A stretch of 64,000 nt of DNA. Origin: Fonticella tunisiensis. Its GTDB lineage: Bacteria > Bacillota > Clostridia > Clostridiales > Caloramatoraceae. Shown here one piece after another: positions 2,870 to 16,655 of the stretch. Position 1 is the first letter of the stretch. The number at the start of each line of letters is the position of its first letter. The notes beneath the pieces are model-generated. The model saw only the letters and a list, made by a program, of their open reading frames with translations, had not been told where the DNA came from and made no database searches. The stretch spans positions 1-64,000 of the forward strand of contig NZ_SOAZ01000003.1 in NCBI RefSeq assembly GCF_004364155.1. The letters are read 5' to 3'. Made by a program: the position numbers and the translations under genes.

Positions 2870-3711
2870 TAGCTTTCTACCTCCTTGCTTCTTGTGAAAA
2901 TAAGCTGCGCAAACGCCATGATTGCTACCAAAATGAAAAATATTACTGCCTTTGCTTGTCCTACACCTTCCCAACCTACTCTACCATAGAAGGTATTGTA
3001 AATGTCAAGTGCAAGCATGGCTGTCTTTTTAGACGGCGCGCCTGCCGTTAAGGCCAGGTTTTGATCAAACAATTTAAAGGAATTGGATATTGTTAAAAAC
3101 AGGCATATTGTAATAGCCGGCATAACCATTGGTATTGTAACGTTTCGTAATATTTTTAATGGACTGGCTCCATCTATTTTTGCTGCTTCAATTAAATCTG
3201 TTGGTACATTTTGAATTCCTGCAATATAAATAATCATCATATATCCTATTAATTGCCAATTCATTAGTATAACAAGTCCCCAGAAGCCGTATTTGGCATC
3301 GTAGGTCAAAGTTACACCGAATTTATATAGAATCCCATTAATAATTAACTGCCATATATATCCCAATACAATACCACCTATTAAATTAGGCATAAAAAAT
3401 ACTGTCCTAAATAAATTTGTGCCTTTTATACCCCTGGTTAATAGAAAAGCTAATGTAAAAGCACATACATTTATTGTTATAACAGATACCACAGCAAACC
3501 TTGCAGTAAACCATAGGGCATTTAAAAATTCTTTATTTTCAAAGGCTTTAATATAGTTGCTTAAACCTACCCACTTAGCATTTAACACTGTGGTAAACTC
3601 CGTAAAAGATAAATATAAACCTAAAAGAAAGGGTATTAAAAAGGCTATCAAAAATGCTAATAACGTGGGGAGGGTAAAAATAGGAAAATATTTTATTAAT
3701 TTCTTTTCCAT
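2869..3711 (-). CDS. Sugar ABC transporter permease, MalF-like
   Basis: Partner permease of the MalG-like protein. The 280 residues include an N-terminal hydrophobic helix after KKLIKYFPIF, further membrane segments, and the EAA loop EAAKIDGASPLKILR near residue 190. The start has a GGAGATGG-type ribosome-binding site. It lies 90 bp downstream of the binding-protein gene and overlaps the MalG-like start by one base. The length fits the short CUT1 permeases of Firmicutes, without the large periplasmic loop of enterobacterial MalF. Confidence 0.9.
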   Translation of the reverse strand: MEKKLIKYFPIFTLPTLLAFLIAFLIPFLLGLYLSFTEFTTVLNAKWVGLSNYIKAFENKEFLNALWFTARFAVVSVITINVCAFTLAFLLTRGIKGTNLFRTVFFMPNLIGGIVLGYIWQLIINGILYKFGVTLTYDAKYGFWGLVILMNWQLIGYMMIIYIAGIQNVPTDLIEAAKIDGASPLKILRNVTIPMVMPAITICLFLTISNSFKLFDQNLALTAGAPSKKTAMLALDIYNTFYGRVGWEGVGQAKAVIFFILVAIMAFAQLIFTRSKEVES

Positions 3712-13909: not shown

Positions 13910-15259
13910 ATGAAAAAGGATAGACTTAAAATAGTTACTATCGGCGGTGGTTCCAGCTACACACCTGAATTAATTGAAGGGTATATAAAGAGAAAAGACG
14001 AGCTTCCAATAAAGGAAATCTGGCTTGTAGACATTGAAGAAGGAAAAGAAAAACTTGAAATAGTTGGAAATCTCGCAAAGAGAATGGTCGAAAATGCAGG
14101 CCTTGACTGGGAAATTCATCTTACCTTAGATAGAAGAGAAGCACTTAAAGATGCTGATTTCGTATCAACTCAGTTTAGAGTAGGTTTACTTGATGCCAGA
14201 ATAAAGGATGAACGTATTCCTCTAAGCCATGGATTAATAGGACAGGAAACCAACGGTGCAGGTGGAATGTTTAAAGCCTTTAGAACGGTTCCTGTTATTC
14301 TTGATATAGTTAAGGACATGAAGGAACTTTGTCCCGATGCATGGCTCGTAAACTTTACAAACCCATCAGGAATGATAACAGAAGCTGTTCTTAAGTATGG
14401 CAATTTTGAAAAGGTTGTAGGATTATGCAACGTTCCAATAAATCATATAATGCATGAATCAAAACTCATTGAGAAGAACCCTGACGATTTATTCTTCCAT
14501 TTTGCAGGTCTTAACCATCATCACTGGCATAAGGTATATGACAAGGAAGGAAATGACCTTACTGAATTGGTAATTGAAAAGATGTTCAACAGCAACGAGC
14601 CTATTGTAAAAAATATCAGATATATACCATTCTTTAAGGAACAAATTCGTGATTTAGGAATGCTTCCATGCAGCTATCACCAATACTACTATCTGCAGGA
14701 TGACATGCTCAAGAAGGAGCTGGAAGAATATGCTAAGAACGAAACCCGTGCAGAAAAAGTAAAGAAAGTTGAAGCTGAATTGTTTGAACTCTACAAGGAT
14801 CCAAACCTTAAGGAAAAGCCAGCCCAATTAAGCCAGCGTGGAGGTACTTACTATTCAGACGCTGCATGCGAACTTATAAGCTCAATTTACAACGACAAGA
14901 GAAGCACTATGGTTGTAAGTACCAGAAACAACGGAGCGTTAGCCGATCTTCCATATGACTGCGCAGTTGAAGTAAGCAGCATTATAACTGCTTCAGGTCC
15001 AAAGCCAATCAACTTTGGAAAGCTCCCAACAGCTGCACGTGGACTTGTACAGGTTATGAAGGCGATGGAGGAACTCACAATTGAAGCTGCTGTAACTGGA
15101 AACTACGGAACTGCACTTCAAGCATTCATACTCAACCCATTAGTTCCTGGTGGACAGATTGCAAGAACAGTATTAAACGAAATGTTGGTTGCTCATAAGA
15201 AGCACTTGCCTCAGTTTGCAGAAGCAATTGAAAAGATTGAAAAGGGTGAACTAAAGTAA
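13910..15259 (+). CDS. GH4 6-phospho-glycosidase (6-phospho-beta-glucosidase type)
   Basis: 449 residues from ATG at 13910, seven bases after a GGGGG ribosome-binding site. Glycoside hydrolase family 4 enzymes cleave 6-phospho-glycosides with NAD+ and a divalent metal by a redox-elimination mechanism. Visible features are the nucleotide-binding GGGSSYTPEL at the N-terminus, NFTNPSGMITEAV, the predicted metal ligands Cys in GLCNVP and His in GLNHHHW, and QRGGTYYSDAACELI. The sequence is closest in pattern to LicH/CelF 6-phospho-beta-glucosidases. No PTS gene is adjacent, so the sugar source is unclear. Confidence 0.88.
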   Translation: MKKDRLKIVTIGGGSSYTPELIEGYIKRKDELPIKEIWLVDIEEGKEKLEIVGNLAKRMVENAGLDWEIHLTLDRREALKDADFVSTQFRVGLLDARIKDERIPLSHGLIGQETNGAGGMFKAFRTVPVILDIVKDMKELCPDAWLVNFTNPSGMITEAVLKYGNFEKVVGLCNVPINHIMHESKLIEKNPDDLFFHFAGLNHHHWHKVYDKEGNDLTELVIEKMFNSNEPIVKNIRYIPFFKEQIRDLGMLPCSYHQYYYLQDDMLKKELEEYAKNETRAEKVKKVEAELFELYKDPNLKEKPAQLSQRGGTYYSDAACELISSIYNDKRSTMVVSTRNNGALADLPYDCAVEVSSIITASGPKPINFGKLPTAARGLVQVMKAMEELTIEAAVTGNYGTALQAFILNPLVPGGQIARTVLNEMLVAHKKHLPQFAEAIEKIEKGELK

Positions 15260-15270
15260 GGTTTTAATAT

Positions 15271-15296
15271 AAGGCGGTCAGATATATGACCGCCTT
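15271..15296. terminator. Bidirectional terminator between convergent genes
   Basis: AAGGCGGTCA (15271-15280) pairs perfectly with TGACCGCCTT (15287-15296) around loop GATATA, followed by TTTTC. It separates the GH4 gene from the convergent selenocysteine glutaredoxin-like gene. Confidence 0.88.
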
Positions 15297-15341
15297 TTCA
15301 ATTCTCTGATACCAGTCACTTATAAATAACAGAAGAAAATC

Positions 15342-15605
15342 CTATCTAAGCTCATCCAGGTCAGGCCTATCGAAAAACAGCTTCTCCCCATCGTTTACTA
15401 CGATTAGAGGTATTCCTATCCTACCTGCTTTTTTTATCTCGTCAAACTCAGGCCTGAAGTCCCTGTATTTAAGGTACATCTTTAAATTAAACAAGCTTTC
15501 CGAAATATCAAGGAAAGCAAATTTTATGTTGTTCTGTGAAAGAAACTCTTTCACCGGTTCACAGTCCTTTCAGTATTTACTTCCAAATACAACAACCTTT
15601 TTCAT
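15342..15605 (-). CDS. Glutaredoxin-like selenoprotein (UGA-encoded Sec in a UxxC motif)
   Basis: Read with UGA as selenocysteine, the frame encodes 87 residues: it starts MKKVVVFGSKY-U-KDCEPVKE, continues into SQNNIKFAFLDISESL, and ends in RPDLDELR. The start ATG at 15605 follows GGAGG at the right distance. UGA (15572-15570) falls exactly where glutaredoxins have the first Cys of CxxC; Cys remains at the second position. The thioredoxin-fold cis-proline segment is RIGIPLIVVND. A SECIS-like hairpin follows the UGA. Ordinary annotation would begin at codon 18 and lose the active site. It is probably a thiol-disulfide or reductant-linked oxidoreductase; substrates are unknown. The alternative is a nonsense mutation in a Cys gene. 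Confidence 0.85.
15534..15564 (-). promoter_or_regulatory. Candidate bacterial SECIS element
   Basis: Just 3' of the UGA, GTGAAAGA (15554-15547) pairs perfectly with TCTTTCAC (15543-15536) around loop GTT. An alternative outer pairing joins CTGTGAA (15564-15558) with TTCACAG (15540-15534). The apical loop starts 24 nt after the UGA and begins with G. Both fit the described bacterial SECIS pattern of a hairpin inside the coding region with a small G-containing apical loop. Confidence 0.7.
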
Positions 15606-15791
15606 CTTCATTCCTCCTAATGTTTCCATGTATATTTATGTATATTCTTATTATAAATAATCTTGTAAAGGGAGGAAAGGAAATATCATTACAGACATTA
15701 ATAACTTTTCTAAATTACAGTCAAATTAATTTATTTTTAGCAGGTAAATTCAATAAAATGAAGAATTAATATAATAAAGGAGGGAACATAT

Positions 15792-16655
15792 ATGTTAAAA
15801 ACTAATAAAGACAGGCTTATTATCCAGTCTGTACAAGGAAAAATTCATCATCCTGTGTCTGCTCCATCGCCATATAGAATTAGTCATGAGGGCATTCCCC
15901 ATGTACTTCCTGCCACAGGTGGAATTACATACAATGTTAAGGTTGGTGATCCCGCTATGGGGTGGGTTGGTGACCACATAGAACCGGGGGTTACAATAAG
16001 AAATGAAAACACAGCTGAAAATGCTGCACTTAATACCCTCTCATGTATAGGTAATGAAGCAAGGGTTGTAAGCGGAGACGCAAAGGGAGCAAAGGGATTT
16101 GTGACAGGAACCCATGGAGGGGTTGAACATGTTATCATCTACTTCAGTGAAGAGGATATGGAAAAGATGGCCGTTGATGACAAAATCCTTGTTAAAGCAT
16201 GGGGGCAGGGACTTCAAATTGAGGGTCATCCTGAAATTAAAATTATGAACATCGATCCTGAGCTGTTCTTAAAACTTGGCATAACCGAGGAAGGCGGGAT
16301 TATAAAGGTTCCGGTTGCTGCAGTTGTTCCACCATACCTGATGGGCTCAGGCATCGGCTCATCCTCAGCCTTCAGCGGCGATTACGACATTATGACGGCA
16401 GACTGGGATGAGGTTGTAAAAAATGGCCTCGATAAGCTAAGGTTTGGAGACATCGTCCTCATAAAGGACGCTGACAACACCTTTGGAAGAGGCTATCTAA
16501 AGGGAGCCGTAAGTATAGGCGTTGTTATTCACAGCGACTGCATAAAAATGGGCCACGGTCCTGGAATAACAACCATAATGACCTGTAAGGAAAGCAAAAT
16601 ACATGGAGTAATAGACAGGAATGCAAATATAGCAAATTATCTTGGGATAAAGTAA
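15792..16655 (+). CDS. DUF4438 family protein
   Basis: 287 residues with an AAAGGAGGG site before ATG. The sequence matches my memory of the DUF4438 family, known structurally from a Thermotoga protein without an assigned function. It is soluble, Gly-rich and probably compact, with segments GITYNVKVGDPAMGWVGDH, VTGTHGGVEHVIIYF, GSGIGSSSAFSGDYDIMT and AVSIGVVIHSDCIKMGHGPG. The repeated Gly-Asp and His-Gly patterns suggest metal or ligand binding, but this is a guess. It stands alone, followed by its own terminator. Confidence 0.75.
   Translation: MLKTNKDRLIIQSVQGKIHHPVSAPSPYRISHEGIPHVLPATGGITYNVKVGDPAMGWVGDHIEPGVTIRNENTAENAALNTLSCIGNEARVVSGDAKGAKGFVTGTHGGVEHVIIYFSEEDMEKMAVDDKILVKAWGQGLQIEGHPEIKIMNIDPELFLKLGITEEGGIIKVPVAAVVPPYLMGSGIGSSSAFSGDYDIMTADWDEVVKNGLDKLRFGDIVLIKDADNTFGRGYLKGAVSIGVVIHSDCIKMGHGPGITTIMTCKESKIHGVIDRNANIANYLGIK

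Follow-up and report, generated by a model that had tools for sequence, protein, structure and literature searches.

A glutaredoxin-like gene of Fonticella tunisiensis with an in-frame UGA codon almost certainly read as selenocysteine

The minus strand of the analysed DNA stretch of 64,000 nucleotides (here called the window) carries a short glutaredoxin-like reading frame in which UGA replaces the first active-site cysteine, and the question is whether this codon ends translation or specifies selenocysteine (Sec). Sequence comparison indicates that the apparent stop is almost certainly read as selenocysteine, and we are highly confident that the product of the gene is a functional glutaredoxin-type selenoprotein with a UxxC motif. 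The features of the locus are compiled in Table 1.

Table 1. Features of the putative selenoprotein gene (positions in the window)
Feature	Position	Strand	Basis
Sec glutaredoxin-like CDS, 87 residues, UGA taken as Sec, TAG included	15342..15605	-	Reading frame, Pfam, AlphaFold2
UGA codon, position 1 of the UxxC redox motif	15570..15572	-	TGA in 23/23 Sec-type sequences, Cys (TGC/TGT) in others
Ribosome-binding site AGGAGG, ATG 7 nt further on	15613..15618	-	Read from sequence
Predicted SECIS element: stem 15554-15547 with 15543-15536, 8 bp; apical loop GUU 15546-15544	15536..15554	-	bSECIS fit, covariation, near-frozen codons

From the ATG at position 15605 the frame runs through 11 codons, the TGA as codon 12 and 75 further codons to the TAG at 15344-15342, which confirms the frame and ribosome-binding site described in a sequence-only reading of this DNA. 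With TGA translated as U the product is MKKVVVFGSKYUKDCEPVKEFLSQNNIKFAFLDISESLFNLKMYLKYRDFRPEFDEIKKAGRIGIPLIVVNDGEKLFFDRPDLDELR. Its active site reads Y-U-K-D-C (U12, C15), and the cis-proline of the thioredoxin-fold signature, which had likewise been recognised from the letters, is Pro66 of the GIP motif and is invariant in the homologue alignment A1. Homologous genes have G-rich ribosome-binding sites at the same place.

With C written for U the protein matches the Pfam family Glutaredoxin (PF00462) with 33.6 bits (gathering score 22.9, E=4.6e-8). The AlphaFold2 model (pLDDT 91.9, pTM 0.81) has a glutaredoxin/thioredoxin fold whose helical stretch at residues 38-59 is extended, and it combines this thioredoxin-type fold with the UxxC motif and the cis-proline. 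The best match among solved structures is cGrx1 of C. oremlandii (7c10), both by sequence (E 8e-7) and by fold (TMq 0.63). Since this is the best match and the UxxC motif is present, the protein is presumed to be a thiol-disulfide oxidoreductase of the Sec/Cys type, a function assigned from its family. PHROGs returned the general thioredoxin domain only, and no curated NCBIfam model was passed by the window protein, the YruB-type glutaredoxin model TIGR02196 reaching 37.1 bits against a cut-off of 88.55. The subfamily characterised by the inserted helix and an L-x-x-R-D motif may therefore be uncurated.

The sequence-only reading had named the selenocysteine machinery as a check on its proposal, and selA, selB, selD and tRNA-Sec are all present in the same genome (assembly of 3.1 Mb, 99.5% complete). 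The genes selD, selA and selB adjoin on one contig (C8) with 396, 634 and 402 bits, each above the curated cut-off, and a tRNA-Sec with the anticodon UCA was detected on another (C21). Moreover, selD itself (L019, about 1501-1620) contains one in-frame TGA and, about 33 nt beyond it, a hairpin of 8 bp with the loop GUG that is built like the one in the window gene. At least one selenoprotein besides the glutaredoxin, SelD, is thus probably made by this genome. At least one other glutaredoxin, of the Cys type (L042), is encoded in the genome. In a search restricted to GshF no full-length GshF was found in the genome, the one partial match (142 bits) lying below the cut-off.

Seven close relatives of the gene (L023-L029, 52-69% identity) were retrieved from 84,980 species genomes, and all seven have TGA at the same codon. 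A further search, covering 391 genomes of the class as well as 60 relatives, yielded 15 more TGA homologues (L033, L034, L037, L046-L053, L057, L058, L060, L062) along with many Cys-type homologues. The UGA is thus found at the identical codon in 22 other homologues, down to about 40% identity, with the frame otherwise intact in nearly all of them, and it aligns with the active-site cysteine of the Cys-type proteins, so that its assignment to the first Cys of the CxxC motif (YUKDC) proved correct. All Sec-type sequences have the motif UxxC, mostly as U-P-x-C; UKDC is common to the window protein and L058 only. As a side observation, the otherwise intact homologue L029 has an in-frame stop other than TGA near its C-terminus (about 3230, KILFG*PDLAELE), which is possibly an assembly error.

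The distribution of the elongation factor follows that of the codon: of the 16 UGA genomes 15 encode SelB, versus 8 of 32 Cys genomes (Fisher p=6e-6, a test that ignores relatedness), and the sole UGA genome in which no selB was seen (G004) is only 82% complete. The gene tree needs about six changes between Sec and Cys, at least three of which are forced by well-supported branches, which fits the interchange of Cys and Sec reported in bacteria (PMC1794560).

The hairpin downstream of the UGA consists of 8 perfect pairs and a loop of 3 nt (-10.1 kcal/mol). Its stem starts after 15 nt, and 23 nt lie between the UGA and the apical loop; the perfect 8-bp hairpin with loop GTT previously reported thus stood, while its distance of "24 nt downstream" has to be specified as the loop beginning at nucleotide 24. 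The published bSECIS model allows a loop of 3-9 nt with G in the first two positions, a stem of 4-16 bp, a distance between UGA and loop of 16-37 nt and a minimum free energy of at most -7.5 kcal/mol (PMC13188914), and the window hairpin falls within all of these limits. No Rfam match was found in positions 15200-15800. Compared with shuffled sequences the fold has a z-score of -1.0, hairpins of at least the same length in bSECIS geometry follow 57 of the 2198 TGAs of the 64-kb window (2.6%), and synonymous recoding of the same peptide with local codon usage reached 8 bp in 0.7% of the trials (P=0.007). The hairpin by itself is weak evidence, being mildly unusual for a single sequence, and the case for selenocysteine therefore rests on the comparative evidence.

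Pairing and covariation were analysed in a gap-free alignment of 23 Sec sequences, comprising that of the window and the 22 homologues. In this alignment 95.1% of the stem cells are paired, versus 42-69% with slid partners. The outermost stem pair occurs as GC, UA, CG and AU, with both sides changed in 11 of the 23 sequences, and the covariation of 0.156 lies above all slid registers and above the shuffled mean of 0.059, none of 500 shuffles reaching it. With so little variation in the inner pairs, the strongest covariation comes from this one pair. The loop is GTT in 18 sequences, GTA in two, GGT in two and GGA in one, its first base always being G. The covariation adds to the fit of the hairpin to the bSECIS model, which had been suggested earlier as a further check.

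Codon usage over the stem is similarly constrained. Among the ten closest Sec sequences GAG, TTT and CTT never change and GTG, AAA and TC(A/C) scarcely do; conserved residues outside the stem (Gly8, Leu41, Leu45, Arg48) are each encoded by three to five different codons. Synonymous differences at the six stem codons amount to 12.6% of the comparisons between ten close homologues versus 51.1% gene-wide. At the place of the hairpin, Cys-type homologues (n=12) form at most five of the eight pairs. Two individual loci may be mentioned here. The Cys homologue L054 (1534-1596), in a genome without SelB (G301), still has ATGAAAGAGTTGCTTACT at the hairpin place, which looks like a decaying SECIS and would then be a relic. 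A Grx1-like selenoprotein of another subfamily (L031, about 3028-3065; TUPYC) has the near-identical hairpin GTGAAAGAGTTTCTTTCCC over VKEFLS, which reflects either a SECIS of common descent or convergent evolution of both peptide and RNA.

Alternatively, the locus might be a Cys-type glutaredoxin gene whose UGA truly ends translation or stems from a sequencing error, and thus a pseudogene or an assembly artefact. The codon in the window is indeed known from the assembly alone. However, the recurrence of the same UGA at the active-site codon in 22 homologues of other genomes, with frames intact in nearly all, already refutes this reading as a general explanation, and SelB tracks the presence of the UGA; we therefore regard it as very unlikely. 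Translation might also start at the GTG at 15554, leaving the upstream codons untranslated and giving a 70-residue protein without the redox centre. Mechanical ORF calling returns exactly this frame (15342-15554) alone, with the active site left out. Yet the AGGAGG motif precedes the upstream ATG. Residues 1-11 and Cys15 are shared between species, and the codons upstream of the hairpin vary synonymously, as is typical of coding sequence. The shorter product would be devoid of both the active site and the first beta strand seen in the model, so that a start at the GTG appears extremely improbable.

A further scenario accepts that the UGA is decoded and assumes insertion of cysteine or tryptophan by near-cognate readthrough instead of selenocysteine. 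In homologues the position is naturally occupied by cysteine, and some organisms are known to misincorporate this residue at UGA codons meant for Sec. The genome nevertheless encodes a full Sec system, the SECIS-type hairpin is under selection, and the Cys homologues do not have it, which leaves very little probability for this scenario.

Translation of the UGA as selenocysteine, and with it the proposal of an active selenoprotein made in the sequence-only reading, is supported by the machinery, the conserved UGA and the covarying SECIS, from which we infer activity. In the proposed mechanism SelB with Sec-tRNA(Sec) would bind the stem-loop after codon 12, and insertion of Sec at this codon would create the active site U12-K-D-C15. 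By analogy with related enzymes, the low-pKa selenolate of Sec12 may attack a substrate disulfide or sulfenic acid, and Cys15 may resolve the mixed selenenylsulfide.

The gene is flanked in the window by a convergent GH4 glycosidase gene and a divergent DUF4438 gene. A conserved neighbourhood that could give a clue to function was not found in L023, L024, L027, L028, L033 and L034; as these neighbours are not common to the relatives examined, the gene appears to stand alone. Promoter matches do not exceed those in shuffled sequences. A ten-pair inverted repeat (15271-15296, AAGGCGGTCA/TGACCGCCTT) lies between the selenoprotein gene and the convergent GH4 gene; it was not called by the scan and is probably a terminator shared by both. 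Near L027 (599-2072) two membrane genes and one further gene were noticed, which we take from their families to be YeeE/YedE-like and SirA/TusA-like, respectively, and which could be a set for sulfur or selenium uptake.

The analysis adds a well-supported selenoprotein gene and 22 relatives, the gene being one that mechanical ORF calling truncates, and the Sec- and Cys-type relatives form a small natural series for the gain and loss of selenocysteine. General ideas on selenoproteins are unchanged by it. Only tentatively, and with more doubt than confidence, do we propose a separate uncurated Sec-glutaredoxin subfamily, marked by the inserted helix and L-x-x-R-D, with its own substrate or a non-glutathione donor, in which the peptide V/L-K-E-F-L-S is held under constraint by the SECIS and several exchanges between Sec and Cys have taken place.

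Zhang et al. (2006, PMC1794560) name Geobacter sulfurreducens, Moorella thermoacetica and Alkaliphilus metalliredigens as organisms with Sec glutaredoxins, and PF00462 as "Grx, UxxC" is a standard entry of selenoprotein catalogues including one of 2026 (PMC13188914), so that the occurrence of Sec glutaredoxins in Clostridia, stated in the sequence-only reading, is borne out. The latter source cites one Sec-glutaredoxin as studied biochemically (Kim et al. 2011, Mol Microbiol 79:1194). The proteins of Geobacter, Moorella and Alkaliphilus have the Pfam family, the motif and the use of Sec in common with the window protein, a likeness taken from the catalogue listing. The biochemical work reportedly concerned the Grx1 selenoprotein of Clostridium (Alkaliphilus) oremlandii OhILAs; the structure 7c10 is the dithiol form of this Grx1, and according to the cited literature the native protein carries Sec as the first residue of UxxC. 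The window protein resembles it in the glutaredoxin fold, the place of the redox centre and VKEFLS after the active site. It differs by an identity of only about 31% over the fold alignment, by the extra helical stretch after strand 2 with L-x-x-R-D and by its length (87 versus about 75-84 residues), and in the tree it is separated from a Grx1-like relative. Furthermore, C. oremlandii Grx1 serves a Sec-type MsrA, whereas no such link was found in the genome of F. tunisiensis, where the single MsrA found has no in-frame stop. The UXX-star selenoproteins (NF041114, NF041211, NF041212) are also small and glutaredoxin-like, and their similarity is weak (E 0.02-0.05); the window protein scores 13.9 bits against a cut-off of 72 (NF041114) and 15.2 against 66 (NF041212) and, in contrast to them, retains the second cysteine of UxxC. 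The window gene is thus a further member of the already known bacterial Sec-glutaredoxins.
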